A stretch of 64,000 bases of DNA from Siculibacillus lacustris (lineage in GTDB: Bacteria; Pseudomonadota; Alphaproteobacteria; Rhizobiales; Ancalomicrobiaceae): NCBI RefSeq assembly GCF_004328075.1, contig NZ_SJFN01000011.1, positions 1 through 64,000 on the forward strand. The letters are read 5' to 3'. Position numbers and translations under genes: made by a program. The notes beneath the pieces were generated by a model, which saw nothing but the letters and a program-made list of their open reading frames with translations, did no database searches and had not been told where the DNA came from. Below, in pieces: positions 1,138-21,113 of this stretch (position 1 is the stretch's first letter; every line of letters starts with the position of its first letter).

Positions 1138-1189
1138 ACGTACCGACACGGCTTCGTTACCTATGGTCGCCATCCGGGGGGGATGGTGG

Positions 1190-4100
1190 ATGTATGCGCA
1201 AACGATCCGACGTTTGCTGGAATTGGCGCCGAACGGACTGTCACATGATCAGTTGCTGTGGCGTCTGCGCAGCTCCGGGCTGAGACTGTCGCCGGCCGAT
1301 ATCCTCGATTCCCTGACACTGTTGTCGGAAGGTGGAGAGGCGCGACTGACGTCCGCCAGGCGATGGCAAGCGGTAGCGCTCTCCTCGCCCCCGGGCCCGC
1401 AGATGAAAGCCTCACGGAACGGACGATTCGGCCCCGCCGGGACGGAGCCCCTGCTCGCGGTGCGCTTCCGCCACGAGGACCAGCCGGCCGGCGACGATCT
1501 CGGCGACGCGAAGGACGGTCAGCGGGCAGACGCAGATTGGCGAGCCCTACTGCGTTATTTTGCCGCCACCCAGCGCTCCGACCCGCGCGGCTCGGTCACC
1601 GAATACCCCGACAATCACGGTAGGGCCTGGCAGCTCGTCTGGGGCAGCGGCGACTGGTGGGCGCCGCGCCGCCGCCTCGTCCTGCCGCTGTCGTCGTGCC
1701 CGGAGACCTTTCGCGAAGCGGTGCACCTGCGGCCGGAGAAGGTCTGCACCATCGGCTATCCTCTGGCGCGCGTCACCGACGACGATGGCCCGCGGGTGCT
1801 GCCGGCGCTTCTGCTGCCGGCGAGTTTCTCCGTCGCCGGGGATGCGCTGTTGGTCGATCTGACAGCGGAAGTCCCGGCGCTCAATCCCGCATGGCTCAAG
1901 ATCGCGGCGCGGTCTTCGGCCTCTTGGAAACAGGGATCGCTCACCGACGCGCTGATTCCGGAAGGCGAGGACGACGACCTCGGCAGTGTAGCCGGCCGGC
2001 TGCGCCATGTTCTCGCCACGCAAGGTGGCGGCGCCCTGAAGCCGGGCGATCTACTGGCCGAGGTGACGCTCGAAGGCAAAGGCCTTTGCAACGCCGCAGC
2101 GCTCTTTCTCCCCTCCGACGCGCGCTTCACCAAGGGCACAGAGCGCGACCTCGACGCCATCGCGCAGTGGTCCGACGACAAGCTCGCGGCGACGGCACTG
2201 GAGACCGTGCTTCGGGGCGACGTTGCGGCCAGCACTGCGGGCTCCGCCGCGCCGGTCGCCATGCGGGTACTGACACCGCACCAATATTCCGCCGCGCTCG
2301 ACGCCATCCGCGCACCACTGACGGTGATCCAGGGCCCCCCTGGCACCGGCAAGAGCGAGGTGATCCTGTCGCTGATGCTGTCGACGCTGATCGACGGCGG
2401 CAGCGTCCTGTTCGCGTCGCACAATCACAAGGCGTTGGACGAGGTCGAGCGCCGGCTGAAATATCTGGTGCCCAAGCATCCGCTGCTCACCCGGGCACGC
2501 GACGCCGACGGCGAGCGCGACACCAACTTCTTCGCCGAGCTGGCAGCCATCGCATCGGGTCCCGTGCGCCCAGCGGCGGCGACGGAGGCGACGGAGCGGT
2601 CACGTCTACGCCAGTCGGCCGCGGCACTGGCCGAGGCAGAAGCAAGCGCAGCGGAGGCGCAGCGGCTGCGGCTGGCGCTCGCGGAGCTGACCGACCAGCT
2701 GGAGGCGGGCGATCCGGTCGACACACCGCCACCGTCGCGTGGTTGGTGGCGCACCCTTCTCGCTCGGATGTTCGGTCGCGGCCACGGCTCGACGGGGGAA
2801 GCCCGCCTAACCGTTCTGCGCAGAGAGATCCAGGCACGGCGGCTCGATCTGGAGCGGCTCGGCGCACCATCGACCGAGTCGATGGCGGCGTTAGCGGAGA
2901 CGATCCGCGCGGCGTGCCCGGCGGCCGTCGACGAAATCGCGACGTATGAGCTGCCGCCGACCGCCGAGGAGCGGCATCGTCTCGCCGACCGTCTGGCGGA
3001 AATGAAGTTCGATGGCGATGCCGGCCCGGATGGGCTGACGCTCGAGGATGCCCGTGAGGTGCTCGCCCACCGGCCGATCTGGGCGGTCGGCACGCTGTCG
3101 GCGCCGAGCCGGATCCCACTCCGACCGGGCCTGTTCGACCTCGTCATCTTCGACGAGGCGAGCCAATGCGACGTCGCCTCCGCCCTGCCGCTGATGGCCC
3201 GGGCACGGCGGGCCGCCGTCGTCGGCGATCCGGAGCAGCTGAGTTTCATTCCGCAGCTGTCGCGCTTGAAGGAGCACGCGCTGATGGATGCGGCCGGGCT
3301 CGGCAAGGTCGGCCGGCACCATGTGGCACAGAGCATCAACTCGCTGTTCGCCTTTGCCCGCCGCCGCCCGACCTGCCGGGCACATTTCCTGGCGGACCAA
3401 TTTCGCTCGGACGAGGCAATCGTCGATTATCTCAACGCCGACTTCTACCAGGGCGCACTGACGGCGGCGGTCGACGAAAGCCGCCTCAGAGTGCCCAACG
3501 GATATCGCGCCGGTCTGCACTGGCACGATGTGCCGGGGCGGGCGACGCGGGCTGATGGTGGCAACATCAATCTCGCCGAAGCACAGGCGGTGGTCGACCT
3601 CGTCGTCGCCATGGTGACCGAACGGGCCTACACCGGCTCGATCGGCGTGCTGTCGCCGTTCAACAGCCAGGTGAACCGGATCAATGTCCTGCTGGAGCCG
3701 CATCTGAAGCGGATAGAGGCGGTCGGCGTCGATCTCCAGGTTTTGACCATCGACCGCTTCCAGGGCGGCGAGAAGGACGTGATCCTCTTCTCCACCGTAC
3801 TGGCCGCGGGAGCGCCGGCATCGGCAAAGACGTTCTATGTGCGCGAGCGACGGCGGCTGAACGTCGCCGTCAGCCGAGCGCGCGCGTTGTGCCTCGTAGT
3901 CGGCGACAAGAGTTACGTTAGGTCATCAGGCATAGCCCCCCTGGTACACCTGGCGGACTGGAGCGAGCGACCGGGGAAGCCGCGTGCCGGCTACGACAGC
4001 CTGTGGGAGCGGCGACTGGCGGCGGCAATGACGCGACGCGGCCTGACCTTTTTCCCGCAATACAGCGTCGGACGGCGCTATCTCGACTTCGCGCTCGATC

Positions 4101-4303
4101 CCGACGGCCGCAAGCTCGCTGTCGAGGTCGACGGGCAGCGCTGGCATACCGACCGCGACGGTGGCCGCAAGGTATCGGACCGCCTCCGCGATGCCGAATT
4201 GCGGGCGCGCGGCTGGACCATGCGACATTTCTGGGTTCATGAGCTTTCGGCAGACATGGAGGCGTGCGTTGACGCAATCGAGCGAGCTCTCGGACAGCGC
4301 TGA
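1190..4303 (+). CDS. UPF1-like superfamily 1 helicase with C-terminal Vsr/DUF559-like nuclease domain
   Basis: A 1037-aa protein when started at the ATG at 1190, which follows a G-rich Shine-Dalgarno stretch; an ATG at 1163 would add nine residues. Helicase motifs in order: GPPGTGKSEVI (Walker A, near residue 382), a coiled-coil-rich insertion (about 430-570), DEASQCD (UPF1/DNA2-type motif II, near 654), VGDPEQLSF, DRFQGGEKDV and NVAVSRARALCLVVGD. The last 105 residues (YDSLWERRL, YLDFALD, AVEVDGQRWH) match the Vsr/DUF559 branch of PD-(D/E)XK nucleases. It is the first gene of a co-directional cluster with McrB- and McrC-like genes. It resembles the helicase component described for CoCoNuT systems; that assignment is inference, while the helicase call is firm. 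Confidence 0.9.
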   Translation: MYAQTIRRLLELAPNGLSHDQLLWRLRSSGLRLSPADILDSLTLLSEGGEARLTSARRWQAVALSSPPGPQMKASRNGRFGPAGTEPLLAVRFRHEDQPAGDDLGDAKDGQRADADWRALLRYFAATQRSDPRGSVTEYPDNHGRAWQLVWGSGDWWAPRRRLVLPLSSCPETFREAVHLRPEKVCTIGYPLARVTDDDGPRVLPALLLPASFSVAGDALLVDLTAEVPALNPAWLKIAARSSASWKQGSLTDALIPEGEDDDLGSVAGRLRHVLATQGGGALKPGDLLAEVTLEGKGLCNAAALFLPSDARFTKGTERDLDAIAQWSDDKLAATALETVLRGDVAASTAGSAAPVAMRVLTPHQYSAALDAIRAPLTVIQGPPGTGKSEVILSLMLSTLIDGGSVLFASHNHKALDEVERRLKYLVPKHPLLTRARDADGERDTNFFAELAAIASGPVRPAAATEATERSRLRQSAAALAEAEASAAEAQRLRLALAELTDQLEAGDPVDTPPPSRGWWRTLLARMFGRGHGSTGEARLTVLRREIQARRLDLERLGAPSTESMAALAETIRAACPAAVDEIATYELPPTAEERHRLADRLAEMKFDGDAGPDGLTLEDAREVLAHRPIWAVGTLSAPSRIPLRPGLFDLVIFDEASQCDVASALPLMARARRAAVVGDPEQLSFIPQLSRLKEHALMDAAGLGKVGRHHVAQSINSLFAFARRRPTCRAHFLADQFRSDEAIVDYLNADFYQGALTAAVDESRLRVPNGYRAGLHWHDVPGRATRADGGNINLAEAQAVVDLVVAMVTERAYTGSIGVLSPFNSQVNRINVLLEPHLKRIEAVGVDLQVLTIDRFQGGEKDVILFSTVLAAGAPASAKTFYVRERRRLNVAVSRARALCLVVGDKSYVRSSGIAPLVHLADWSERPGKPRAGYDSLWERRLAAAMTRRGLTFFPQYSVGRRYLDFALDPDGRKLAVEVDGQRWHTDRDGGRKVSDRLRDAELRARGWTMRHFWVHELSADMEACVDAIERALGQR

Positions 4304-6020
4304 GCGAAGGCGCCGGTTCGGTTCGGCAACGATCACCGCGGTCGTGCTCTCGGCGTCGCTGTTGCTGGTGAACGGCGGGGTGCTGTGGTTCTTGCAGGAT
4401 CATCAGCTGATCATCGGCGCACAGCGGAGCCAGATCACTGCCGACCGCGCTCAGGTAGAGGCGGATCGCGGCGCACAAGCCAGCCTCCTCGGCCAGCGTG
4501 ACGCGCTCGTACAGCAGATCGGCGAACTCGGCCGGCAGCAGAGCACACGCAAGTCCGAGCTGGCGCAACTGAACGAGCAGGTCCGCGATCTGGAGCGGCT
4601 GGCCAAGCAACGCGAACAGGCGATCGCCGATACGGAGGCGGCGCGCAAGGGACTCGTCGAAGCGGAAGCCGCCAAGGCGGAGGCCGATGCCGCTGCCAAG
4701 CGTGCCCGCAGCGAGCTTCAGCAGGCGCAGGCGGATCTGAAGGCGGTGCAGGGCGACGTCGATCGGGCGCGAGCGGTCAAGGCGGCGCTCGACGACGAGC
4801 TGCGCAAGCTGACCGGTGCTCGCGATACGGCCGCGGCCGATACCCGCACCGCGGAGACGCGGCGGGCAGAGGTCCAGACCGATCTGGACGGGCTGACGCG
4901 GCGGCGCGACACGATGCGCAAGGACCAGGAGCAGGCGCTGCGCGATCTCGATGCCGCCAGAGCAGACGTCCAGAATGCCTTGGCCGAGGCGAGGAAGGCG
5001 CGTGACGACGCGGCCGGGTCAGTGCGCGCCAAGGCCGAAGCCGATTCGGCTGCGCAACGGGCGCAGAAGGAGGTGGACGAGGCACGCGGCAAGCTGAAGG
5101 CCGTAACCGACGATATTGGCCGCGCACGAAACGAGCTGACCACGCTCCAGACGTCGATCACAACGGCGACGAAGCAGGAACAGGACGCGCGCGTCCGCCT
5201 GACGGCGGCGCAAGGCGATTTGGCGGCGGCGGAGAAGGCCCGCGACCAGGCGCGGCAGGAACTCGTCGCGCTCAACGGTCAGATCGAGGCGGCCAAGGCG
5301 GAGGCACAGCGGCTGGCTTCGGCGAAGGCTGAGCTCGGCCAGGTCGTGCGCGACCTGACTGATGCTCGCAATGCCCTGCCGCAAGCCCGGGCCGATCTCG
5401 ATGCCGTTCGCAAGCAGGGCGACGAAGTGCGCGCGCGGCGCGATGCGTTCGCCAGCGATGTACAGAGCCTGACAGCGCTGAAGGACCGGCTGACGGCGGA
5501 CCTTGCCAAAAAAGCGGATCTCGACCGGGCGCTTCAGGACGTGCAGGAACAGACGGGCAAGGCACGCGCCGAGGCCGAACGGGCCCAGGCGGATCTGCGG
5601 CAGGCGAGTGCGGCCTTGCAGCAGGTGCGCGGAGAGGCCGGCGGCTTGCAGGCGGCGGCGGACGTGTTGCGCCGGTCGCTGGACGGTTTCCATCAGGAGG
5701 AAGTGCGGCTCGGCGCCGTCATAGCGCGGCTCACCGCCCAGCGCGACAATCTCGTGAAGAGTGGCGCCGCCGGCGACGCGGCACGGCCACCCGATACGAT
5801 CGAACACGCCGACGCTCCACCCGCGCCGCCGACCGAGGGCGCGGTGGAACCTGGTCCCGTCCCCGCCCCATCGCCGGCCCCGGCCCCGCAGCCCGCGGCG
5901 GCACCAACGAAGGCGCCGGCACGCACGCCTGAGCGGCGCGCGCCGCAGAGTACGACTGTACCGATGCCCCTCACCCCCGCGCCTCGCACCCCGGCCAAGC
6001 CGCAAGAGCCCGCTCAATGA
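4239..6020 (+). CDS. membrane-anchored long coiled-coil protein of the McrBC-like operon
   Basis: About 593 aa if started at the ATG at 4239, overlapping the helicase end by 65 nt; a TTG at 4269 is an alternative. A single hydrophobic helix (TAVVLSASLLLVNGGVLWFL) follows an arginine-rich start, giving one predicted membrane anchor with the N terminus inside. About 430 residues of Ala/Glu/Lys/Arg/Gln heptad-like sequence follow, then a Pro-rich tail of about 90 residues. No catalytic motif is visible. The architecture suggests a membrane scaffold or spacer. The stop overlaps the start of the McrB-like gene (ATGA at 6017-6020), implying translational coupling and a stoichiometric partner. Confidence 0.85.
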   Translation: MSFRQTWRRALTQSSELSDSAERRRRFGSATITAVVLSASLLLVNGGVLWFLQDHQLIIGAQRSQITADRAQVEADRGAQASLLGQRDALVQQIGELGRQQSTRKSELAQLNEQVRDLERLAKQREQAIADTEAARKGLVEAEAAKAEADAAAKRARSELQQAQADLKAVQGDVDRARAVKAALDDELRKLTGARDTAAADTRTAETRRAEVQTDLDGLTRRRDTMRKDQEQALRDLDAARADVQNALAEARKARDDAAGSVRAKAEADSAAQRAQKEVDEARGKLKAVTDDIGRARNELTTLQTSITTATKQEQDARVRLTAAQGDLAAAEKARDQARQELVALNGQIEAAKAEAQRLASAKAELGQVVRDLTDARNALPQARADLDAVRKQGDEVRARRDAFASDVQSLTALKDRLTADLAKKADLDRALQDVQEQTGKARAEAERAQADLRQASAALQQVRGEAGGLQAAADVLRRSLDGFHQEEVRLGAVIARLTAQRDNLVKSGAAGDAARPPDTIEHADAPPAPPTEGAVEPGPVPAPSPAPAPQPAAAPTKAPARTPERRAPQSTTVPMPLTPAPRTPAKPQEPAQ

Positions 6021-8092
6021 TTGCGATGTTCTCCGCCAATCCCAGCCTGATGATATTCACCGTGCTCGTGGCGATGGCGCTGGCGCTCACGACGGTCTTC
6101 CTGGCGTACCGCTGGGAGGTCCAGCGCGCGCGCCTCCCGGAGGCGACACGCTATGATGGACTCACCGAACGCAATCGTGAGTTGGCGACGCAGATCGAAC
6201 AGAAAGAGGACGAGTTGCGCATCCTGGATCAGAAGATCACGGATCGCGACCGTCTGGTCGGCGAGTTGGCAGCCCTTGAGGAGCGGTTGCATGCGGTGAA
6301 GGCCGAGTACGAAAGCCTCTCCGACGCGCGGCAGCAGATCGACGACGTCAAGCGGCAGGCGGCCGAGGCGGCGGGTGAGTTCGCGGAAGCTTCGGCCAAC
6401 CGCGACGCCATCCGCGCCGAGTGCGACGATCTGAAGGATCGGCGTACGCAGCTGACGCACGAGATCGCCGACCTCGAAGCACGGGTGGAACAGCTTCGGA
6501 AGGAAGCCGAGAAGGTGCACGGCGTCGACAAGGAGGTTCTGGACGCCCTGCGCCGGGAGATCGAGACGACGCAGGCCACCAAGGCAGCGCTCGATACCGA
6601 GGTCGCCGAGCTGCGTGCGGCACGGGGAGCGCTGGTCGCCGAGCGTGGCATGGCCGAGGAGACCTTGGCCGAGGCTGGCCGCCTGCAAAGCACCCTGGAT
6701 GACCTGCGCAAACAGGTCGAAGCGCAGCGTCGCGCGGTGGAAGAGATCGCCGCCCGACGCGCGGCCCTGTCGGCGGAGGCGGAGCGGATCGAACGCCTCG
6801 TTGCCCGCAAGGCGGCGCTCGACGCGGAGGTCGAGAGCCTCGAACGTCGGCGTGTCGAAGCCGAGACCGCCCCCGACAAGGCACCGGCGGATCTGACCGC
6901 AATGCTGGAGGAGCTGAAGCGCCGGCCATCTTTCCTGGATGTGCCGTCTGGCAGCCCGGCGCTGGTCCACAAGGAGCCGCAGACCGAGGAGAGCGCGCTC
7001 TACGACGTTTCCAGAGCACTCGAAGAACAAAAGCTTGCTTATGACGACCGCACTCTGCGGGCATTCCACACCGCACTGAAAATCAACGACAATGCACAGA
7101 TGACCGTCCTCGCCGGTGTGTCCGGTACCGGCAAAAGCCTCTTGCCACGCCGCTATTCGGAGGCGATGGGCCTGCACTTCCTCCAGCTCGCCGTCGAACC
7201 GCGGTGGGACAGCCCGCAGGATCTGCTCGGCTTCTACAACTATATCGAGAAGCGCTACCGTGCCACCGAACTGGCGCGCGCCCTCGTCCACATGGACCCG
7301 AGAAACACCTCGACTCTGTGCGACACGCCGCAGAAGGACCGGGTGCTGGTCGTGCTCCTCGACGAGATGAATCTTGCGCGTGTCGAGTACTACTTCTCCG
7401 AGTTCCTCAGCCGCCTCGAAGTACGGCCGCGACGCGGCGACACTAAGGGGGCGCACAAGGATGCCGAGTTGGTTCTGGACATCGGCAGCGTCGGTGCGAA
7501 GCCAATACGGCTCTATCCATCGCACAACGTGCTGTTCGTCGGCACGATGAACGACGACGAGAGCACACAGTCGCTGTCCGACAAGGTGCTAGACCGAAGC
7601 AACGTGATGCAGTTCAGCGCACCGGAGGCGTTCGCCAAGCCGGCCGACGACGCGAAGGCCGTTCGGATGACGGGCTATCGTGATCTTCACTCATGGCAGA
7701 GCTGGATCCGCCCGATCAGTCATCTCGACCGGGAGGGGCTGCGACCGAAGGTCGACGACGTCATCAACAAACTCGCCGTGATCATGCAGGGCTGCGGCCG
7801 CCCGTTCGGCCATCGCCTCAACGAGGCGACGCTGGCCTATGTCGCCAACTATCCACTGCGCGTCGCCGGTCAGGTCGAAGAACCGCTCGTCGACCAGATC
7901 GAGTTCCGCATTCTGCCGAAGTTGCGTGGGCTCCAGATCGACAATCACCACGAGGTTTTCGACGAGCTCCAATCGCTGATCAGGACGCAGCTCAACGATC
8001 CGGCGTTCGCCGCCAAGATCGGCGAGTACGTAGCGCGGCAGGAAGGCCAGTCCAACCAGTTCAGTTGGCGCGGCATCAGCCGCAAGGGGTGA
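6017..8092 (+). CDS. McrB-type AAA+ motor with N-terminal membrane helix and coiled coil (CnuB-like)
   Basis: 691 aa. The N terminus holds a membrane helix (LMIFTVLVAMALALTTVFLA), then a coiled coil to about residue 290. The AAA+ domain follows: Walker A GVSGTGKS at 367-374, and DEMNLARVEYYFSEFLSRLE from residue 449, the signature of McrB-family motors, with GTMNDDES near 509 as the sensor-1 region. McrB proteins are GTPases or ATPases that drive a McrC nuclease. The usual N-terminal modified-DNA reader (DUF3578 or EVE type) is replaced by the membrane helix and coiled coil, a hallmark of CoCoNuT-type McrB homologues. The next gene, three bases downstream, encodes the McrC-like partner. Confidence 0.9.
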   Translation: MIAMFSANPSLMIFTVLVAMALALTTVFLAYRWEVQRARLPEATRYDGLTERNRELATQIEQKEDELRILDQKITDRDRLVGELAALEERLHAVKAEYESLSDARQQIDDVKRQAAEAAGEFAEASANRDAIRAECDDLKDRRTQLTHEIADLEARVEQLRKEAEKVHGVDKEVLDALRREIETTQATKAALDTEVAELRAARGALVAERGMAEETLAEAGRLQSTLDDLRKQVEAQRRAVEEIAARRAALSAEAERIERLVARKAALDAEVESLERRRVEAETAPDKAPADLTAMLEELKRRPSFLDVPSGSPALVHKEPQTEESALYDVSRALEEQKLAYDDRTLRAFHTALKINDNAQMTVLAGVSGTGKSLLPRRYSEAMGLHFLQLAVEPRWDSPQDLLGFYNYIEKRYRATELARALVHMDPRNTSTLCDTPQKDRVLVVLLDEMNLARVEYYFSEFLSRLEVRPRRGDTKGAHKDAELVLDIGSVGAKPIRLYPSHNVLFVGTMNDDESTQSLSDKVLDRSNVMQFSAPEAFAKPADDAKAVRMTGYRDLHSWQSWIRPISHLDREGLRPKVDDVINKLAVIMQGCGRPFGHRLNEATLAYVANYPLRVAGQVEEPLVDQIEFRILPKLRGLQIDNHHEVFDELQSLIRTQLNDPAFAAKIGEYVARQEGQSNQFSWRGISRKG

Positions 8093-8095
8093 GGC

Positions 8096-9661
8096 GTGAT
8101 CGAACTCTGGCACCGCCCATGGGCGAAGCTCGATCGTAGCGGGCGGCGCTACACACTGATCGACGGCGACGCATTCGTGCGTGACGCCCGCGAGACCGGG
8201 CCACTCTGGTTGTGCTTGCAGGAGCGCGACGAGCCGGTGGTCGACGGCAAGCGGAAGCTGGCGGAGGTCATCACCGATCTCGGCGACGGACGGCGTGTCT
8301 ATTCCCTACCACTGCCTCTGCGGCCGACCGTCGGTCTCAAGCTCGATCGCCCCGGTCGTAGCCGTGGCCACGTCAGCATCGTGCCGCGCGGCCTCCTGAT
8401 GCGGCCGCCGAAGGAGGGGCAGGCCGACCTGGGGGCGGTCGAGCTGTTCACGCGGGTCAAGGCGGTGTGGACACGGCTCAGCGACGTCGAGGACGTGCTC
8501 GGCGACCCCGCTACGATCTGGCAGCGTCTGGCGGCGCTGTGGATGAGCGGCGCGGCGGAGGATGATCCGAAGCGCGACGTCATCGTGCGGCACGCCCGCA
8601 AGCTCGGGCAGACGCTCGACATCATCGACAAGCGGCCGCGCCGCATCCTGCGCCGCACGCAGCAACTCGTGCCGCTGTCGCGCGTCCAGGAGCTGGACCG
8701 CAAGGCGATCACCTGGCTGATCCGCCAGCCGGGTGAGACGGTGGTGGAGCGAGCAGGGTCACGGCAGCGCATCCGGGCGGTGACGCGTGAGGAGAATTTC
8801 AACACGCTCGAAAACCGCGTCGTGCTGAGCTACGCGCGGCTCGCCGACCACCTCGCGCGGGATTACTGCAACCGCAACCGCTCGGCGGCGCAGTCGAGCC
8901 GTTATGCGGCGGTGCTGGCCTTCCGGCGCAAGACGCAGCGTCTGGCGCAGAATTTGGCCGACATGGGCGTGATCGCCGCCAACCCGGATGTCACGCCGAA
9001 CTTCGTGTTGCAGAACAACCCCGCCTATCATGCGGTCTGGATCGCCTGGCGCGAACTTCTGCGCCACCATCGCGTCATCGACGATCTTTGGCATTGGCAG
9101 GCGCGCTCCTGGGAGGAATTCACGGCGCTGGCGCTCGTCGTGGCGCTCCACGGCATCCCGGGCGCGCGGATACTGGCGACGTCCCCGCTCATCTTCGAGG
9201 AGGAGCAGCGGCGCGGCTGCTGGCTGACGCACGTCAACCCGCTCGCCACCGTGTTTCTGGCAGAACAGGGCGTCGTGGCCGAAGTGTCCTATCGACCGCA
9301 CTACAAAGGGAGTCTCAGGTCGTTCGCTGCGCCGATCTGGCTCAGGGTCGGCCGGCTGAACGTGCCGTTGGAGAATCAGCCATACTGGGTGGTGTGGCCG
9401 CTCTGGGATGCGGTTGGCGGCATCGATCCGGACGTGCAAGAGGCCGAGGAGATCGAGAGTGTGCTCGAGGCCGGCGGTAAGACCGTGGTGCGCGGCATCG
9501 TCGTACGCCCGACACGCGCCGCAGGGGGGATCGAACGCCAGTCGTCGAAGCGGGCGACCGTTGTCACGCTCGGCGCCAGTGGCGACGCCTTGCGGCAGGG
9601 CATCGAGGCGCTGCGCGATATCGTGGTCGCCGACATCGGTGGTGGTCGCGGTCATGGCTAA
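8096..9661 (+). CDS. McrC-related DUF2357 protein, apparently without the nuclease motif
   Basis: 521 aa with a GTG start three bases after the McrB-like stop. The central TREENFNTLENRVVLSYA segment (residues 231-247) is the DUF2357 hallmark found in McrC-type partners. In active McrC proteins a C-terminal PD-(D/E)XK fold carries an Asp and an (E/D)xK pair. Here the equivalent strands read AAPIWLRVGRL and PYWVVWPLWD, with no such pair, so the nuclease fold looks inactive or heavily diverged. The protein may therefore only bridge or stimulate the motor. It overlaps the next gene by 8 nt. Confidence 0.8.
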   Translation: MIELWHRPWAKLDRSGRRYTLIDGDAFVRDARETGPLWLCLQERDEPVVDGKRKLAEVITDLGDGRRVYSLPLPLRPTVGLKLDRPGRSRGHVSIVPRGLLMRPPKEGQADLGAVELFTRVKAVWTRLSDVEDVLGDPATIWQRLAALWMSGAAEDDPKRDVIVRHARKLGQTLDIIDKRPRRILRRTQQLVPLSRVQELDRKAITWLIRQPGETVVERAGSRQRIRAVTREENFNTLENRVVLSYARLADHLARDYCNRNRSAAQSSRYAAVLAFRRKTQRLAQNLADMGVIAANPDVTPNFVLQNNPAYHAVWIAWRELLRHHRVIDDLWHWQARSWEEFTALALVVALHGIPGARILATSPLIFEEEQRRGCWLTHVNPLATVFLAEQGVVAEVSYRPHYKGSLRSFAAPIWLRVGRLNVPLENQPYWVVWPLWDAVGGIDPDVQEAEEIESVLEAGGKTVVRGIVVRPTRAAGGIERQSSKRATVVTLGASGDALRQGIEALRDIVVADIGGGRGHG

Positions 9662-12119
9662 ACTCGCCGGGCTCGACCTCGCCGGATGGCACGACGCCGC
9701 CTGCTGCAACTACGACCTCGCCAGCGGCGAGGCGACGGCGGAGGGCGTGGTCGTCGACGGCGGTATCGGAGCCGTGGTGGTCGACATGACGGTCGGCGGT
9801 ACCAAGTGCGCCGTTGCCGGTCCGCAGGCGATCCTCTCGCCGATCGGCCGAGGCTACGGTTGGAGTAAGATCGGCGACCCGAAAGCCCGGCGTTCGTTGC
9901 GGGCTCGGTGGAAAGACCTCTTCGGCTGCGCGGCGGCGGAGCCGCACATGACGGACTTCGCCGCCGGCGTCACGGCACTGGCCGCCGGCGCCGAGCGCGT
10001 GTTGTTCTGCGTTCCCGACCGGCCGGAGATGAGCGAACGGCCGCAGCAGATGTTGCTGCGCGGCCTGACCGGCCGAGGCCGATCGCGGCCGACGCTGTTG
10101 TGGCGTTCAGTCGCCGTGTTGCTCGACGCACTCGACGGCGGCCGCTTGTCGAATGTGGCGGCAGGCATGATGATCGTCGTGCTGACGCACGAGGGTGACG
10201 GCATCGCGATGCAGCGCTTCGTGCTGCGCGGCCTCGACGCCCACGATGGCGTCCTGGCCCCCGAACGCGCCGCCGTCGGGCGCGTTTTCTGGCCCACCTG
10301 GGGGCTGGAATGCCTCCTGGAGACGCTGACGCGCGAGCTACACGCGGCCAATCCGGCGCTTGAGGAGTTCGGAGCCGAGACGCCGCGGCTGCCGCTCACC
10401 TTGCTGCTGATCGAGCCGCCCTTCGAGTTGCCGGAGATCATTCGACGCGACAACGGCGACTGGTTGCAGATCGACGCCCCGGTCGAACGGCCGATCACCC
10501 CCGACTTCGACGTCGCCGATCCCGACCTTCCTCCGGCCGATCTGGTGCTGGTGACCAGCCCTCTGGCGGCGCGCCATCGTGACCGGCTCGAAGCAGATGT
10601 CCGGCGTGCCTGGCCCGGCGTCGAGGTGATGGCGCTCAATCCCGCCTCGGCGGCGCGCGGCGCACTCTATGCCGCCGAGCGCATCGCCCGCGACATCCCA
10701 CACTACCTTGACCGGCTCGACCCAATCGCGCTGGCGGTGCTGCGCGACGACGAGCCGGTGTTCCAGGACCTCATCCCGCGCGACGCGACCGTGCCGGGCA
10801 ATCGGGAATATGTCTCCGAGCCGATCACGACCCTGATGTGGGCGACGGGTATGACGCAGGCGAACTTCTACATCCAGAAGGGCGAGCGCGAGATTCGGCA
10901 TTGGAAGACGGCGGAGATGGAAGCGCCGAGCACGGCGCAGCCGCTCATCCTACATCTGCGGCAGACGCCGGCGCAGGGCTGGGCAACATTGACGGTGACG
11001 TCGCCAACTTGGGAGCTGTTGCGCGCGCGACCCATCGTGCTCGACTGGAACAGCGACGAGCTCAAGGTCGATGAGCGTAGCCCCGAGGAGATACTTAACA
11101 GCCTGGAACGGCCGCCGCCCGTCGTACCGAACCGCATCCGACACGAGGCGCATATCGGGCTTTGGAATGGTGAGTTTCGCCGCCCCGGCCTACTCAGCGT
11201 ACTTCGCTCGCTCGACGCTGCGTCACCAGACGATCTGTCGGGTCTCGTCGCCATGCTACGGTCCTCCTACACCTTGCGGGAGAAGACCAAGGATGGCCTG
11301 CCATTGGCGCGACAGGTCTACGCCATCGGCAGTGACGGCGAGGTGCCGTCGATTGTCGCACCGGCTGACGTGGCGCGTCTCGACCGAATCCTGGCCGCAG
11401 TCGCCCAGCGCATGGCAACGGTGGTGGCCAAGCGACGCCCGCCGACCAACAATGAGTTGCTCCTGACGGCAACCTGGGCCTTTGGCCGGTGTCCTGCGGC
11501 AGTTCAGACCTTGCTCGTCGACGCGTATCTCCAGGACCGGAATGCTCAACCGCATCCGCTGGTCATCACGCACCACTCTCGTCGCGCACTGATCCACGGC
11601 CTGGGGCGATGCATCAGCGATGGGGCGCTCGCCGTTCGCCTCATCCGCAGCTTGCTCGACGGTGAACCGTCGAGCGATGCATTGGGGGCTGCCGGCGCGC
11701 TGTTGTCGCGGCCGGTGGCGACGCCGCTACACCTCAGCGATGAGGATATGGGCGATATCGTCGGGCTGTTGATCAAGCAGTTCCGGCGCATTCGAAGGGG
11801 CATGAGCTTCGGTGTCACACTGAAATACGCGCTTCTGTGCGCCGCCGGCTTGCTCCGGATCCGAGAACGGCTACCGCGGGCACTAATCGTGCGATCATCG
11901 GTCGAGGCTCAGCAATTGCTCACCGAGATCGAGGTGATCGCCGATCAGATCGAGCTTCGCCCCGGTCGCCCCGTGCCGGGCCGGGCGGCGAAACTCGCGA
12001 TCATGGGCGACCTGATCGAGTACCTGAACGGTACCGGGGGCAATCCCGATATCCTGACCAACGTCGCGACACTGTCCGATGACAAGGATGGAGGAGACCG
12101 CGATGACGGCGACGCTTGA
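9654..12119 (+). CDS. Hsp70/actin-fold-like protein of the McrBC-like operon
   Basis: 821 aa; the ATG overlaps the previous stop by 8 nt. The N terminus (AGLDLAGWHDAACCNYDL) resembles a phosphate-1 loop of the actin/Hsp70 ATPase fold, and later segments (PASAARGALYAAERIARDI) look like an Hsp70-type motif, though the similarity is remote. The last 300 residues are a helical, repeat-like region without a motif I recognise. Hsp70 homologues, proposed to bind RNA, are reported companions of CoCoNuT McrBC systems, and the position here fits. The fold call is inference; that it belongs to this operon is clear from strand and overlap. Confidence 0.6.
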   Translation: MAKLAGLDLAGWHDAACCNYDLASGEATAEGVVVDGGIGAVVVDMTVGGTKCAVAGPQAILSPIGRGYGWSKIGDPKARRSLRARWKDLFGCAAAEPHMTDFAAGVTALAAGAERVLFCVPDRPEMSERPQQMLLRGLTGRGRSRPTLLWRSVAVLLDALDGGRLSNVAAGMMIVVLTHEGDGIAMQRFVLRGLDAHDGVLAPERAAVGRVFWPTWGLECLLETLTRELHAANPALEEFGAETPRLPLTLLLIEPPFELPEIIRRDNGDWLQIDAPVERPITPDFDVADPDLPPADLVLVTSPLAARHRDRLEADVRRAWPGVEVMALNPASAARGALYAAERIARDIPHYLDRLDPIALAVLRDDEPVFQDLIPRDATVPGNREYVSEPITTLMWATGMTQANFYIQKGEREIRHWKTAEMEAPSTAQPLILHLRQTPAQGWATLTVTSPTWELLRARPIVLDWNSDELKVDERSPEEILNSLERPPPVVPNRIRHEAHIGLWNGEFRRPGLLSVLRSLDAASPDDLSGLVAMLRSSYTLREKTKDGLPLARQVYAIGSDGEVPSIVAPADVARLDRILAAVAQRMATVVAKRRPPTNNELLLTATWAFGRCPAAVQTLLVDAYLQDRNAQPHPLVITHHSRRALIHGLGRCISDGALAVRLIRSLLDGEPSSDALGAAGALLSRPVATPLHLSDEDMGDIVGLLIKQFRRIRRGMSFGVTLKYALLCAAGLLRIRERLPRALIVRSSVEAQQLLTEIEVIADQIELRPGRPVPGRAAKLAIMGDLIEYLNGTGGNPDILTNVATLSDDKDGGDRDDGDA

Positions 12120-12237
12120 TGAGTACCCAGCTCTGGAACAGGTGGTCGCGATCCCGTGGAACAGGTGGTCGGATTGCCGTGGATTACGCAGGATCGCTCC
12201 AATTGCCTGCCGAGCGTTTCGATCCGCGCCCCGGTGA
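12103..12237 (+). pseudogene. probable 5' remnant of a sixth operon gene, cut off by IS21-like repeats and the CRISPR array
   Basis: A strong Shine-Dalgarno sequence (GGAGGAG, 12090-12096) lies six bases upstream of an ATG that overlaps the end of the Hsp70-like gene by 17 nt, just as expected for a further coupled gene. The frame (MTATLDEYPALEQ...) soon runs into IS21-like 23-bp repeats and stops inside the first CRISPR repeat after 44 codons. I read this as the start of a lost downstream gene rather than a functional peptide. Confidence 0.5.
12134..12190. repeat. second IS21-like repeat cluster (23-bp period), remnant of an IS end
   Basis: The 15-mer TGGAACAGGTGGTCG occurs at 12134-12148 and 12157-12171, exactly 23 bp apart, and a third partial copy (TGGATTACG) starts on phase at 12180. 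Repeats of this type and spacing occur at the ends of IS21-family elements. No transposase gene is left. The sequence differs from the cluster at 153-238, so a different IS21 relative was involved. Confidence 0.5.
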
Positions 12238-14675
12238 AGGGGCGACCCATGGTGTAGGGGCGTCCAAACTTGGTGACGAGGTTTCGATCCACCCCCCGGT
12301 GAAGGGGCGACTTGATTTTCGCGAGCGCGTCGCGATCGGCTTGACTGTTTCGATCCACGCCCCGGTGAAGGGGCGACCTGGCCGGTCCCGTCGTTCCACA
12401 CGCCGCCACGGTTGTTTCGATCCACGCCCAGGTGAAGGGGCGACGAGCGCGATCTTCTCGCCCCAATGGAGGTCGGAGAGTTTCGATTCACGCCCCGGTG
12501 AAGGGGCGACCGGAAGCCGCGGCGAGCATCGCGCTCGCGGTGATGTTTCGATCCACGCCCCGGTGAAGGGGCGACGACGCCACTCGCCCAACCGGCGGAT
12601 GGCGTGAAGTTTCGATCCACGCCCCGGTGAAGGGGCGACTCCATCGAGAGGTGATGCCGCGGCGCGGGTGGACGTTTCGATCCACGCCCCGGTGAAGGGG
12701 CGACGGGTCTTTTCATGCTACGCGCCCCGCGCCTGTTCCGTTTCGATCCACGCCCCGGTGAAGGGGCGACGATTGTCGGGCGTGTGCCACGCCGTGCCGG
12801 CGGCGTTTCGATCCACGCCCCGGTGAAGGGGCGACTCGGCGGCGTCGCGCGCCGGGGACCGACTCTCGAGGTTTCGATCCACGCCCCGGTGAAGGGGCGA
12901 CCGCAGCACGACGCCCGGTATCTGATCTGGCGACCGTTTCGATCCACGCCCCGGTGAAGGGGCGACTTCGCGCGTTCCGCCCCGCCGAGACGGCTTGGAT
13001 AGTTTCGATCCACGCCCCGGTGAAGGGGCGACCGCGCGATCTATGCGGGACGATCCAAACGCGGGCGTTTCGATCCACGCCCCGGTGAAGGGGCGACCTG
13101 CCGCACATGGTTGTACCCCGGAGCATTATAGACGTTTCGATCCACGCCCCGGTGAAGGGGCGACCCGCGCTGGCGCGTGCCGGCGGTCTCCGCGCCGAGG
13201 TTTCGATCCACGCCCCGGTGAAGGGGCGACCGTAGAGGGCGGAATGGGCCGTGGTCATCATGACGTTTCGATCCACGCCCCGGTGAAGGGGCGACTTCCA
13301 ACTCGGCGCGACCTTCTTCCCAATTCTCGTTTCGATCCACGCCCCGGTGAAGGGGCGACCTTCTTGACGGTCTCGAAGGTGGCGCTGTCGAAGTTTCGAT
13401 CCACGCCCCGGTGAAGGGGCGACACCGTCGAGCGCTACCTCGATGGTTGGACCACCAAGGTTTCGATCCACGCCCCGGTGAAGGGGCGACGTGGTGACCC
13501 TCGGTGTGGTCACCACCAATGAGGAGTTTCGATCCACGCCCCGGTGAAGGGGCGACATCGTTCGAAAATCCACCCTCCTCTTTCACGGTGTTTCGATCCA
13601 CGCCCCGGTGAAGGGGCGACGTGAGGAGTGTGGAGCCATGAGATATGACTATGTAGTTTCGATCCACGCCCCGGTGAAGGGGCGACCTAGTACTCTGGAT
13701 TTGGAATTAGTATGCAAGAATGTTTCGATCCACGCCCCGGTGAAGGGGCGACAGAGGGGGGAGCAAACGGTCCCCCGGCTAACCGGAGTTTCGATCCACG
13801 CCCCGGTGAAGGGGCGACCCCGTATCCGTCCGCTTGAAACACCCACCCCTGGTGTTTCGATCCACGCCCCGGTGAAGGGGCGACGCACAATTGCCGCCGA
13901 CGCTCCGACCACTTTAAAGTTTCGATCCACGCCCCGGTGAAGGGGCGACAGCGGCGAGACGATCACGCCGACGATTTTGGAGAGTTTCGATCCACGCCCC
14001 GGTGAAGGGGCGACAGAGCCGAGGGGGTCGGGTCGGTGGCGGCCATGGGTTTCGATCCACGCCCCGGTGAAGGGGCGACGGGTCACCGCCTGGCTGTCCG
14101 GCGACATAGCCGCGATGTTTCGATCCACGCCCCGGTGAAGGGGCGACCCGCTAGGCTCACTCCCCATCCCTCCGCAGCCAGCGTTTCGATCCACGCCCCG
14201 GTGAAGGGGCGACCGTCAAGTAACCGCGCATGCCTCCCGCGGTCAAACTGTTTCGATCCACGCCCCGGTGAAGGGGCGACGTGTCGCGGCCGTGCTCTTG
14301 TATTTTCAGCTTCGCGGTTTCGATCCACGCCCCGGTGAAGGGGCGACACGGCGCCGGCTCGCGTACGATCACGACGACCGGGTTTCGATCCACGCCCCGG
14401 TGAAGGGGCGACCTCGGCCCTCCGATGAGTCCGATCGCGAGGGCGCCGTTTCGATCCACGCCCCGGTGAAGGGGCGACAGCGGGTTATGCTCAAAATGAG
14501 CATAGCAGGAAGTTTCGATCCACGCCCCGGTGAAGGGGCGACCGCCGGTCAGCGCGGCCGGCAGGACGTCGAAGAAGTTTCGATCCACGCCCCGGTGAAG
14601 GGGCGACCTTCCGCGACCGTAAGACCGCGGAGCGCCGCTATAGCGTTTCGATCCACGCCCCGGTGAAGGGGCGAC

Positions 14676-14710
14676 ACGTGGGATCCTTAAGGTCACCGAG
14701 ACTCTCAACT
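14676..14710 (-). repeat. duplicated CRISPR spacer, leader-distal copy
   Basis: This 35-nt spacer begins ACGTGGGATCCTTAAGGTCA and is identical in all positions to the spacer at 15071-15105. The spacers on both sides of the two copies are different, so a block duplication of several units is not seen. Confidence 0.97.
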
Positions 14711-15070
14711 GTTTCGATCCACGCCCCGGTGAAGGGGCGACCCTCCGGCGCCTGATGCCGGCTCCACCACTGGGGAGTTTCGATCCACGCCCCGGTGAAG
14801 GGGCGACAGCTGTCGCCGTTCTCGGATACCCTCGAGGTCGTGTTTCGATCCACGCCCCGGTGAAGGGGCGACAGCTCGTGGGCGTCTTCGGTGTCGATGT
14901 GCAGAGAGTTTCGATCCACGCCCCGGTGAAGGGGCGACACTGGCATCTGGTCCAACGTGACCGATGAGGACATCGTTTCGATCCACGCCCCGGTGAAGGG
15001 GCGACCAATGGCTCCGGTTGCGACGCTCACCACCCCCAAGTTTCGATCCACGCCCCGGTGAAGGGGCGAC

Positions 15071-15105
15071 ACGTGGGATCCTTAAGGTCACCGAGACTCT
15101 CAACT
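15071..15105 (-). repeat. duplicated CRISPR spacer, leader-proximal copy
   Basis: Second, identical copy of the spacer at 14676-14710, six repeat units closer to the leader. It lies between repeats at 15040 and 15106. Confidence 0.97.
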
Positions 15106-15464
15106 GTTTCGATCCACGCCCCGGTGAAGGGGCGACGCCATCAAGCGCGGATGGCTGTTGACGAGCATGTCGTTTCGATCCACGCCCCGGTGAAGGGGCG
15201 ACGCGTCGGCAATGACGGTCTGTTGCACGGCGTTTAGTTTCGATCCACGCCCCGGTGAAGGGGCGACCGGATGAATTCAACGGACTTGATACGACCCGCG
15301 TAGTTTCGATCCACGCCCCGGTGAAGGGGCGACCAGCGAGCCAATGGTCACGATGCCTTCCGTGAGAGTTTCGATCCACGCCCCGGTGAAGGGGCGACCC
15401 GTCGTGCACCTGCGTTGCCGCCGCGCCATTGACGTTTCGATCCACGCCCCGGTGAAGGGGCGAC

Positions 15465-15985: not shown

Positions 15986-17020
15986 TCACTTCCACAGCCA
16001 CGGCGGATAGGCGTCGAGATCGCCGCGCAGGTGACGGGCGAGCAGTTGCGCCTGGAGATGCGGCACCAACCCGAGCGGTGCGACCTCGTCGAGGAACGGA
16101 TGCCGCCGCTCCTCCTTCTTGCGTTCGGTCCAAGCCGTCAGCACGGTCTTGCGGCCCTCGTCGCCGAGCCAGACGGCGCCGCCGTCCCGCAGGTCGAAAT
16201 CGCGGATGCGCAACTGCCGCCGATTGACCAGTGACAACGCCAGTCGATCGGCGAGAACCGGGCGCAGTTCCTCCATCAGGTCGAGCGCCAGGCTCGGGCG
16301 GCCGGGCCGGTCGCGGTGGAGGAAGCCGACGGCGGGATCGAGGCCGACGCCCTCCAGCGCGCTGCGGCAGTCATGGACCAGCAGCGTGTAGAGGAACGAG
16401 AGCAGCGCGTTGACCGGATCGAGCGGCGGTCGGCGCGAGCGGCCGGCGAAGCCGATCTCCGGGTCCGGTGACCGGATCAGGCCGCCGAACACCGCGAAAT
16501 AGAGCCGCGCCGCGTCGCCCTCCAGGCCGCGCAACTCGTCGGTTTCGATCGGCGCCAGGGCGGCCCGGCGCAGCGCCCGGGCGAGCCGATCGACGGTGTC
16601 CTCGGTGGCAGCCCGGGCGGTCGTCTCCATGTCGGCGCCGTGATCGCGCAAGGCGCGTTGCAGCACGGCGCGCTGATTGGCGATCTTGCCGCAGACGAAG
16701 CCGCGCACGATCTCGTGCGCGTCGTCGGCGCGTGCGTATTGCGCCCGGCGCAGCAACACGTTGCCGCTGACGGGACCCTCGATGCGCGCCTGGAACCGGC
16801 CGGCACGATCGAGCAGGACGATGGTGATGCCGGCCGTCGCGCAGGCCTGGATCAGCGGTGGCGTGAGCAGGATCGCTCCGAATGTCACGATCGACTGCAG
16901 CCGATGCAGCGGTACCCGCATCCGCTCGGCACCGTCGATCTCGACGACCAAATTCTCGCCGTCCTTCTTCACCGCCGCACCCTCGGTGGTGACATAGACG
17001 GTGTTGAGCAGTTTCTTCAT
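15986..17020 (-). CDS. cas1: CRISPR-associated integrase Cas1 (type I-C)
   Basis: 344 aa starting [20 protein letters not shown], typical of type I-C Cas1. The N-terminal beta domain is followed by the helical catalytic domain with the expected Glu ([13 protein letters not shown]), His ([18 protein letters not shown]) and acidic (MEELRP) metal ligands. It forms the Cas1-Cas2 spacer integrase. The start overlaps the cas4 stop by four bases (ATGA), and upstream in-frame codons belong to antisense or overlapping sequence, so this ATG is preferred. Confidence 0.98.
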
Positions 17021-17709
17021 GGCCGGCCCTCGTCGTCGACCGGTGCAGGGTCGGCGAGATCGGCGGCGATGCGTCGCTCCATCCAGGTCCGCGCCGAACG
17101 TCCGCCGGCCCTCGGGGCGCAGAGATCGATCAGCGAACAGGCGCGACAGCGATCGGCGCGATAGACCGCCGGTGGCGTCCGCCCCTCGGTCACCATCGAT
17201 CGGAGCGCCGCCGCCGTCGCTTCCGTCTCCGTGCGGAGTTCCGCGTCGAACGGCACCCGCAGGCGCCGTCGTGTCTCGCCGTAGAACAGCGCCCCTTCCG
17301 GAACGGGCCGGCCGATCATTTCCTCGAGAGCGAGGCCCTGGGCGCAGAGTTGGACTTCGTCGGCGCGGTGGAGCTTCGGGCTGCCGCGCTTGAACTCGAC
17401 CGGCAGGGCGGTCTCGCCACCGTCGTCGGCGGGCAGGAACTCGACCAGATCGGCGACGCCGGCAACCCCGAGGCGGCGCGAGCGCAGGGCCAGAGCGGTG
17501 ACGCGGCGCAAGCCCCGTCGGCGCTTGGCGCCGGGTTCGTCGGCACTCTGATGCAGAATGCGGCCTTCGGCGGTGTAGACGTTCTCCGCCCACAGCCGCT
17601 CGACATGGATCAACGCCGCCTGACGCGGGCAGAAGACCATGTGTTGCAGCGCCGAGAGGGGAAGCAGGTCGTCGTCGCCGTCGTCCATCGCTCCCCCTCC
17701 ACCGCTCAC
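17017..17709 (-). CDS. cas4: CRISPR-associated exonuclease Cas4 (type I-C)
   Basis: 230 aa. RecB-like nuclease with an N-terminal Cys (HMVFCPRQAALIH), the metal-binding His in GRILHQSAD, Asp in VADLVEFLP, the ExK pair in PVEFKRG, and a C-terminal CRACSLIDLC that completes the four-Cys iron-sulfur site. Cas4 trims prespacers and fixes their PAM and orientation for Cas1-Cas2. ATGA overlaps link it to cas7 upstream and cas1 downstream. Confidence 0.97.
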   Translation of the reverse strand: MSGGGGAMDDGDDDLLPLSALQHMVFCPRQAALIHVERLWAENVYTAEGRILHQSADEPGAKRRRGLRRVTALALRSRRLGVAGVADLVEFLPADDGGETALPVEFKRGSPKLHRADEVQLCAQGLALEEMIGRPVPEGALFYGETRRRLRVPFDAELRTETEATAAALRSMVTEGRTPPAVYRADRCRACSLIDLCAPRAGGRSARTWMERRIAADLADPAPVDDEGRP

Positions 17710-18659
17710 AGCAGGTCGAGAACCTCGACGCCCTCGGGCAGGGCCGTAGTATCGACCGAGATGCGGTAGTCGGCGAAGGCGCGGGCCGGCGGCAGGTTGT
17801 CGAGGCGCGGATCGCCGATCGCCACCGTGTCGTCACCGGAGGCGCGGCCGACCGTCACCCGTTCGAACAGCTTGTGCGCGGGCGCGTTGCCGAGCGCCGA
17901 GGCGTGACGGAAGACCACCAGCCGCCGCGCCGCCATCTCGCCGCGTGCGGCGGAGCGGTCGTGCTCGAACAGGTTCTGCAGGGCCTCCAACAACAGCGCG
18001 AGATCGCCCTCGGAAAAGCCGGTGCGCTCGGCGAGCTTGGCAGAGACGAAGCCGTGCACCCGGTAGAGTCCGTAGGGCACGATGTATTTGCGGCCCATGG
18101 TGCGGTTGTCGGTGCGTTCGTCGCCGTCGGAGCCGTCCGCGAGCTTCGACTTTTCCTCGGCCGAAGTCGCGGCCATGCGGGTGATCGAGATTTCCAGCGG
18201 GATGATCGGCTCGATCGAGCGGGCGAAGGCGATCTGCACGGGGCCTCGCACCTGACCGCAGTTGATGCCGGTCGACATCACCGCGCCGAAGGTGCGCACA
18301 TCGAAGAAATTGTCGCACATGAAGGCGTTGAGTTTCGCCGCCTCGTCGTCGGATTTGGGGTTGAGCTTCTTGTCGGTCGCCGCCTTGGCGTCACCGTCGC
18401 GCACCGCCTTGTAGGCCTCGCGATGCTTCTCGTTGAGGATCGCCCCTTCCGAGACGTAGATGCGGAAGCCGGCCGCGTCTCCCTTGGCCAGTTCGACGTA
18501 GTTGCGGACCTTGCGCTTCAGGCTGACGTCGGAGACGAGGCCCTGGTTGGTCTCCGGATCGAGGCGCGGCAGATTGCCGGCATCGGGGTCACCATTGGGA
18601 TTGCCGTTGGAGACGTCGAAGAAGAAGACGAAGTCGTGGCGTCGGCCGAGCGTGGTCAT
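17706..18659 (-). CDS. cas7: Cascade backbone protein Cas7 (Csd2, type I-C)
   Basis: 317 aa. The N terminus (RHDFVFFFDVSNGNPNGDPD) followed by PRLDPETNQGLVSDVSLKRK is the signature of Csd2-family Cas7, which coats the crRNA in type I-C Cascade. TFGAVMSTG and GQVRGPVQIAFARSIEPI are further family motifs. Four-base overlaps with cas8c and cas4 indicate coupled translation. Length is normal. Confidence 0.98.
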   Translation of the reverse strand: MTTLGRRHDFVFFFDVSNGNPNGDPDAGNLPRLDPETNQGLVSDVSLKRKVRNYVELAKGDAAGFRIYVSEGAILNEKHREAYKAVRDGDAKAATDKKLNPKSDDEAAKLNAFMCDNFFDVRTFGAVMSTGINCGQVRGPVQIAFARSIEPIIPLEISITRMAATSAEEKSKLADGSDGDERTDNRTMGRKYIVPYGLYRVHGFVSAKLAERTGFSEGDLALLLEALQNLFEHDRSAARGEMAARRLVVFRHASALGNAPAHKLFERVTVGRASGDDTVAIGDPRLDNLPPARAFADYRISVDTTALPEGVEVLDLL

Positions 18660-20440: not shown

Positions 20441-21102
20441 CGGCGGATCTCCGGCGAATCGGGACGTGGCACCCGCATCACGCCGTTCTCCAGCCGGGCG
20501 CGGAAGAACAGCGACGAGCGATCACCACCGTGGTCGATGTCCCACAGCATGAAGCCGAGGTCGCGGCTCTCGTCGATCGCCGGGGGCAGGGGGGCATCGG
20601 GGGGGAGAAGCTCGAAGGCGGCGGGGAACTCGCGCGTGCCCAGGCACGGCTGGTGGAAGCACTGACCGCGCGCGGCGCGCCGATTGAACGTGTCGAGGTG
20701 CTTGCCCTCGTTGTCCTCCGGCCCCGCCTTGGCCGTTAGTTCGAAATGCGCCTCGACGACATAGGCGACGCTGACCAGAACGGTCGAAGCGCGTTGCTGG
20801 CGATCCTCGTCGACGCGCAGGCGCAGGTCGCCGAGATCGCCCGATTTCATCGCCGCCCGCGCCTTCGACGCCGGCACCTTGTGGCCGACCTCGTTGCGGC
20901 GGATCGACTGGAAACGGATCGGCTTCAACACATGGATGGCGTCGACGACCCAGCGGATCGCCGGCTTCCAATGGATCGCCTCGAGAATTCCGCGCGCTGC
21001 GGAAGGCGTCATCACGTCATAGGAGACGCGTTCGACCTTCATCTCCGGCCGAGTGAAGCAGGCGTAGTCGCCGGATACCAGAAGTCTGATGCCGTAGGGC
21101 AT
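20437..21102 (-). CDS. cas5c: pre-crRNA processing endoribonuclease Cas5c (Cas5d)
   Basis: 221 aa starting MPYGIRLLVSGDYACFTRPE, with the family hallmarks VERVSYDVMTPSAARGILEA and IHWKPAIRW. In type I-C, which lacks Cas6, Cas5c cuts the repeat hairpin and stays on the crRNA 5' handle. The ATG at 21102 is chosen because it matches family starts; the frame stays open further upstream only over cas3 sequence. It begins 11 bp after the cas3 stop. Confidence 0.97.
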   Translation of the reverse strand: MPYGIRLLVSGDYACFTRPEMKVERVSYDVMTPSAARGILEAIHWKPAIRWVVDAIHVLKPIRFQSIRRNEVGHKVPASKARAAMKSGDLGDLRLRVDEDRQQRASTVLVSVAYVVEAHFELTAKAGPEDNEGKHLDTFNRRAARGQCFHQPCLGTREFPAAFELLPPDAPLPPAIDESRDLGFMLWDIDHGGDRSSLFFRARLENGVMRVPRPDSPEIRR

Positions 21103-21113
21103 GGCGGTCCTTC

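Follow-up and report, generated by a model that had tools for sequence, protein, structure and literature searches.

Results

Five consecutive genes precede a type I-C CRISPR array

The window, by which we mean the whole stretch of 64,000 nucleotides of Siculibacillus lacustris DNA analysed here (NZ_SJFN01000011.1), contains near its beginning five open reading frames, all on the + strand, that extend from about 1190 to 12119 in the order CnuH-CnuA-CnuB-CnuC-CnuD (Table 1). For the starts used here, the junctions measure -65 nt (H/A), -4 nt (A/B), +3 nt (B/C) and -8 nt (C/D). A preliminary description of this DNA, made from its letters alone, had reported such a run of same-strand genes with tight junctions, and the ORF list of the window confirmed it.

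Table 1. Features of the five-gene operon and their positions in the window.
Feature	Position	Strand	Basis or remark
CnuH: UPF1-like SF1 helicase and Vsr-like (MTES_1575/DUF559) nuclease fusion	1190..4303	+	Pfam
CnuH helicase core	2282..3910	+	Pfam AAA_11/AAA_12, residues 374-916
CnuH Vsr-like nuclease domain, REase_MTES_1575	4007..4291	+	Pfam; EVDG..WH signature
CnuA: single N-terminal hydrophobic helix, long coiled coil, Pro-rich tail	4239..6020	+	start uncertain
CnuA hydrophobic segment	4317..4397	+	residues 27-53, no K/R/D/E
CnuB: N-terminal hydrophobic helix, coiled coil, McrB-type NxD GTPase	6017..8092	+	AAA_5
CnuB hydrophobic segment	6047..6109	+	residues 11-31
CnuB GTPase (AAA_5) domain	7106..7597	+	residues 364-527, Pfam
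CnuC: McrC-like protein	8096..9661	+	DUF2357, fold match to McrC
CnuC degenerate PD-(D/E)xK-like domain	9092..9643	+	VIA-align McrC Z 9.7, about residues 326-521
CnuD: Hsp70-like NBD/SBD, helical C-terminal part	~9654..12119	+	AlphaFold2 fold

A type I-C CRISPR array starts about 100 nt downstream of CnuD (window 12216-15464), and within it the repeat-spacer unit at 14645-14741 is repeated identically at 15040-15136. The type I-C cas genes (Cas1, Cas7, Cas8c, Cas5 and Cas3) lie on the - strand at 15986-23381. A gene resembling those of tyrosine recombinases/integrases is found at 29970-31265 and is possibly the edge of a mobile island carrying the CoCoNuT together with the CRISPR-Cas locus; ARAGORN identified no tRNA within the 64-kb window.

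A helicase-nuclease fusion, a coiled-coil protein and an McrB-type motor with its own coiled coil

The first gene had been read as a UPF1-like helicase with a Vsr-like end, in agreement with the Pfam matches of CnuH to AAA_11/AAA_12 and REase_MTES_1575 (PF13087, 4.1e-32; PF13086, 1.4e-14; PF18741, 4.8e-12), while residues 1-370 matched no Pfam family. An alternative start at 1163 (1163-4303) exists, but the ATG at 1190, the earlier choice, is more likely, because in 7 of the 11 III-B loci with a CnuH match the top alignment leaves out the first nine residues of the 1163 reading; the other four comprise three split alignments and one protein cut by the contig end. The EVDG..WH signature was retained in all 16 III-B loci having the Vsr-like end. 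CnuH also matched the defence proteins Hhe (PADLOC, 3.2e-22) and ProA (NCBIfam, 2.9e-42, at 144 bits against a cut-off of 1500), which share with it the UPF1-like helicase and the Vsr-like end but are much larger proteins, with profiles of about 1800-1900 residues. To our knowledge, Hhe and ProA work without McrBC or Hsp70 partners.

CnuB was anticipated to be an McrB-type motor with its own hydrophobic segment and coiled coil, a reading upheld by the AAA_5 match (Pfam, E 2.2e-6), the presence of DEMNLARVEYYFS and the motif GTMNDDE, that is, NxD followed by E; the NxD form is found in all 17 III-B loci. Residues ~45-300 match many coiled-coil and SMC profiles, as judged by profile searches rather than by a dedicated coiled-coil predictor. 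CnuB also matches the PADLOC candidate PDC-M26A (E 1.3e-37), which has no name; our literature search found no paper naming PDC-M26. The second gene agrees with its earlier reading as a coiled coil preceded by one hydrophobic segment, as seen in hydropathy and coiled-coil profiles, although all the profile matches of CnuA are weak and of the coiled-coil type.

A WRxAL(T/S) pattern at the CnuA start, seen in 11 of 17 CnuA readings when checked on the DNA, was considered as a docking peptide and dropped: it overlaps the end of cnuH, and an in-frame start before the motif is often absent. The pattern is probably a by-product of CnuH coding.

CnuC resembles McrC and CnuD resembles Hsp70

The fourth gene had been listed as a DUF2357 protein, and Pfam recovered this match (E 1.6e-7). 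Its AlphaFold2 model, built from 13 sequences (pLDDT 84.2), had McrC as best Foldseek match (E 2e-4), and VIA-align ranks 1-5 were all McrBC entries; the best Z was 9.7 over 279 residues, with an rmsd of 12.0 that spans two loosely placed domains. Although a Z of ~9.7 may be unspecific for helical proteins, the sequence match to DUF2357 agrees with it. For the C-terminal part of CnuC, BsaWI and PaqCI, two restriction nucleases, were further matches (Z ~6). Nonetheless, the presumed (D/E)xK lysine, whose position was deduced from alignment and topology, is absent in all 13 rows of A3 and also in L016, L020 and L026, with L015 outside the pattern. The first part of the model, residues 2-97, consists largely of strands, and its matches to Ig-type and other beta folds were weak (Z ~4).

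For CnuD, sequence-profile searches (Pfam, PADLOC, NCBIfam and PDB sequences) returned nothing useful, and it was the predicted fold that bore out the Hsp70-like reading of the fifth gene. The AlphaFold2 model (12 sequences, pLDDT 86.9) matches DnaK by Foldseek (E 7.8e-13), and a second fold comparison gave Z 25.4 and rmsd 6.2 over 427 aligned residues. Among the best 50 Foldseek matches listed, 48 were Hsp70-family proteins or their complexes and two were ciliary central-pair entries. The helical part comprises residues 570-792. The two proteins are thus McrC-like and Hsp70-like in fold; their being unrelated to McrC and Hsp70 was what the preliminary description had named as speaking against its reading.

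Relatives of the operon are rare and mostly alphaproteobacterial

Searching the genome collection with CnuB yielded 13 loci, of which 12 were III-B-like. The III-B set (n=17) consists of the window, these 12 loci (L002-L013), three plasmid copies (from R. tropici, S. meliloti and R. leguminosarum) and one locus from a phylum sample (L026); best-segment identity to the window was 31-60% in 12 III-B loci. All 16 loci carrying the region keep the order H-A-B-C-D on one strand, which argues that the five-gene set is not due to chance; the separation of the five genes in homologous loci, the other outcome named beforehand as contrary, was not seen within III-B. Other gene sets do occur in more distant cousins (L014, L017 and the III-A loci). 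The contig of the 17th locus (L008) starts within CnuB, with C and D following, and this locus was left out of the CnuH, CnuA and CnuB-segment counts. Rows with shortened or cut proteins were retained, namely L015 (CnuC of 404 aa and CnuH of 732 aa), L003 (CnuD of 647 aa, near a contig end) and L002 (CnuH and CnuD cut by the contig), while L014 was not counted as III-B and the Jannaschia locus L019, which has hypothetical genes of 513 nt and 2.3 kb at the CnuC match, was not used.

Alphaproteobacteria account for 11 of the 12 genome-collection III-B loci and for all three plasmids. The exception, L002, is a III-B operon on a 7-kb contig from a Bordetella MAG; in the tree it falls with the window and with copies from Acetobacteraceae, pointing to transfer or misbinning. 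In the R. tropici copy (L015:717-12632) the shortened cnuH lies directly downstream of IS21 genes, and this is probably a decaying system. In overlapping genome draws, a sample of 385 genomes from the class and one of 199 from the order each had a single genome with CnuC, both times the window's own, and a sample of 398 from the phylum had two. In viral contigs four stretches fitted the search pattern and none was confirmed as a CnuC relative.

The GTPase domains of 23 CnuB proteins, all from loci gathered here (the window, 16 loci of the same architecture, and cousins including III-A and III-C-like rows), were placed in a maximum-likelihood tree. It joined the 17 III-B rows (support 82/80), next to them L014 (96/93) and then L017 of pSYSX (94/89), while III-A formed a clade of its own (100/98); 8 of its 20 inner branches are starred, it is midpoint-rooted, and the long branches of L023, L014 and L017 are possibly misplaced. 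The CnuBs with a hydrophobic N-terminus fall on one side of this tree.

Two of these cousins have gene sets of their own. L014 (Kiritimatiellae; L014:7568-18097) encodes a 1015-residue CnuC, part of which matches the profile of CnuD (E 4e-7, probability 93%), together with a 294-residue protein, a RhuM-family gene and, downstream, a UPF1-like helicase reading frame. It is a III-A-like fusion on a III-B-like pair, an arrangement for which we found no counterpart among the published subtypes. In the CnuB of Synechocystis pSYSX (L017:6368-8527), the hydrophobic N-terminus comprises two uncharged runs and may form a hairpin. As the 800-residue protein of the pSYSX operon does not match the CnuD profile (probability 0.2%), L017 owes its III-C label to its PLD-family gene, its helicase-like gene and its cyanobacterial host.

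CnuA and CnuB share hydrophobic N-termini across the III-B loci

In the window, the CnuA segment has a KD19 of 2.06 and an uncharged run of 27 residues, matched by 0 of 200 shuffles; that of CnuB has a KD19 of 2.57 and a 31-residue uncharged run starting at residue 1, matched by 2 of 200. Similar segments were found in all 16 assessable III-B loci, in CnuA (uncharged runs of 23-31 residues, KD19 1.78-3.04) as well as in CnuB (24-33 residues, KD19 2.02-3.25). At most 3 of 200 shuffles matched the KD value, except for two weak cases, the CnuA of L026 (15/200) and the CnuB of L010 (13/200). Among the cousins, L014 has hydrophobic N-termini on both its CnuA-like protein and its CnuB, and L017, a single III-C-like case, has one on CnuB (KD19 2.39). 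No such N-terminus was present in the Type III-A CnuBs (3/3: L018, L021 and L022), in the TerY-P-associated Pseudanabaena homologue L023 or in six other McrB-like proteins. Hydropathy by itself is no proof of membrane insertion: CnuH also reaches KD19 values of up to 2.3 and uncharged runs of 30 residues, and the runs of CnuC and CnuD reach 26.

We examined charge on both sides of the segments in 16 rows (15 III-B and L014; L026 joined after this test and is not in its counts). In all 16 rows, the flank of CnuB that precedes the segment is free of K/R, and the flank that follows it contains at least one. Fewer K/R before than after the segment were likewise counted for all five E. coli N-out controls and for one of the six N-in controls. 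Net charge had the expected sense in 12 of 16 rows and was zero in four, a measure that gave the expected sense in 4 of 5 N-out and 4 of 6 N-in controls, the N-out protein RmuC having the wrong sign. The charge bias would place CnuB N-out/C-in, with its motor in the cytoplasm. For CnuA the two counts disagree: the K/R difference was positive in 4 rows, negative in 7 and zero in 5, with no N-in lean, whereas the net-charge difference was positive in 11, negative in 2 and zero in 3, and leans N-in.

Discussion

The operon of the window matches the Type III-B CoCoNuT, a kind already described (Bell et al. 2024, PMC11090510). In the main text of that paper, III-B systems are primarily found in Alphaproteobacteria and have a Vsr-like nuclease fused to the UPF1-like CnuH, a separate coiled-coil CnuA, an NxD McrB-type CnuB with a coiled coil, a CnuC that retains an inactivated PD-(D/E)xK domain and a separate Hsp70-like CnuD, and lack TerY-P. 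The window has the CnuH-Vsr fusion, the separate CnuA, the NxD CnuB, the inactivated CnuC and the separate CnuD. Among the 13 window proteins scanned no TerY-P gene was seen, a count that takes in nothing beyond window base 1, where the contig begins. The published definition also includes an N-terminal wHTH and OB fold and a helical insertion after Walker A in CnuH, an Ig-like N-terminal beta-sandwich on CnuC and HEAT-like helices on CnuD (PMC11090510). Comparison of domain content with this description supports the CoCoNuT assignment made in the preliminary description, which erred in finding the gene set impossible to place in a described subtype.

Type III-A systems (L018, L021 and L022) resemble III-B in having CnuH, CnuB and McrC-like modules in one operon, and differ in the adjoining TerY-P-type genes, a CnuE-like gene between CnuH and CnuB, a longer CnuC (1104-1348 aa) and a CnuB without the hydrophobic N-terminus; unlike III-A, for which a CnuC-CnuD fusion is described (PMC11090510), the window has CnuC and CnuD as separate genes. 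With E. coli McrBC the operon shares the McrB-type GTPase (CnuB) and the McrC fold (CnuC). E. coli McrB, however, has NxxD and a DNA-binding N-domain where CnuB has NxD, a coiled coil and a hydrophobic segment, and the presumed catalytic lysine of the McrC nuclease is lost in CnuC. In a later preprint, Druantia I and II were named Type IV CoCoNuTs (PMC12458937).

What distinguishes the window from III-B as published are the hydrophobic N-termini of CnuA and CnuB, on which the main text of the defining paper is silent: it gives the coiled coil as the sole recognisable domain of III-B CnuA, none of its six uses of "transmembrane" concerns III-B, and "membrane" at the start of a word, "anchor", "periplasm" and "signal peptide" do not occur in it (PMC11090510). 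In the main text of the preprint version, none of the four uses of "transmembrane" concerns III-B either. The segments are thus new with respect to the defining paper's main text. They might be taken, as was suggested earlier, for the mark of a distinct, undescribed subtype. We regard this as quite improbable, since the other defining features tested fit III-B and the segments, being found in all assessable loci of this architecture, are probably carried by the published III-B set too. Of the membrane-tethered variant proposed in the preliminary description, the tethering is supported by sequence; the segments are shared by every assessable III-B locus rather than peculiar to this one. A hydrophobic helix and a coiled coil on an NxD GTPase also recall CoCoPALM, in which an McrB-type GTPase is fused to an FtsB-like transmembrane/coiled-coil segment. 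This identification is very hard to sustain: the pilus partners described for CoCoPALM, a clade apart, belong to the signal-peptidase family (PMC11090510), and the helicase-Vsr fusion and separate Hsp70-like gene of the window are the III-B set. In Pfam, the five operon proteins gave no match to such a family; of the neighbouring genes a part was scanned, and 1.16 kb of upstream sequence is visible.

The locus probably encodes an inner-membrane-anchored Type III-B CoCoNuT, a predicted Type IV-like anti-phage system; its defence role is suggested by its family and by its neighbourhood, that is, type I-C CRISPR-cas here and Shedu, which adjoins the R. leguminosarum III-B copy. The hydrophobic N-termini could instead be buried oligomerisation helices of a soluble complex. 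In favour of this are the comparable hydropathy values of globular CnuH, the III-A CnuBs that do without such a segment, and the fact that hydropathy and charge are the sole evidence for insertion. We nevertheless consider it unlikely, as uncharged runs of 23-33 residues stand at the N-termini of two proteins in every assessable III-B locus, highly charged coils follow them, and the K/R pattern is one-sided in CnuB. A weightier alternative, in line with the prediction of an RNA target by the describers of CoCoNuTs (PMC11090510), accepts the same III-B system and gives it phage transcripts or stalled ribosomes as target, with the Vsr-like domain acting as an RNase. The UPF1-like helicase, the Hsp70-like CnuD and the kinship with the HEPN-bearing Types II and III-A (PMC11090510) agree with this possibility, which we hold to be real and yet short of probable. 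The Pfam matches listed for the operon's proteins (25 of 30 for CnuB) include no HEPN family. The nuclease whose signature is intact is of the Vsr/DUF559 type, and Hhe and ProA are matched by the helicase-nuclease half; on these two grounds DNA would be the preferred target.

In the membrane-anchored III-B system that we favour, the N-terminal helix of CnuB would be oriented N-out and C-in and keep the coiled coil and the NxD GTPase on the cytoplasmic side of the membrane, with CnuA as a second membrane-anchored coiled coil co-expressed with it. CnuC may dock in the CnuB ring and trigger GTP hydrolysis as McrC does in E. coli McrBC; it would be unable to cut, so that CnuB-CnuC might act as a GTP-driven switch. 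The Hsp70-like CnuD would recognise the target, a nucleic acid or nucleoprotein. Cutting, most simply of invading DNA near its entry site, would fall to the Vsr-like domain of CnuH because, as judged by its residues, this helicase-fused domain is the only nuclease with an intact signature. An extension of this model, which we offer as a speculation with rather little likelihood, is that III-B and its cousins form a membrane-anchored branch of McrBC-type systems in which a long periplasmic CnuA coil senses phage attachment or genome entry and signals through the membrane to the CnuB GTPase in the cytoplasm and to the helicase-nuclease.

No NxD-type McrB GTPase had been characterised, according to the main text of PMC11090510; among the matches listed, the later literature held no experimental test of a III-B system, and our search found no paper on a membrane-anchored McrBC. 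Should CnuA turn out to lie in the periplasm, it would couple a machine of the McrBC type to a sensor in the envelope, a connection for which we know of no precedent. The conserved pair of hydrophobic N-termini gives rise to a concrete hypothesis, namely that III-B acts at the membrane, perhaps where DNA enters. Such a pair may explain the extra coiled-coil gene and would set III-B mechanistically apart from III-A.
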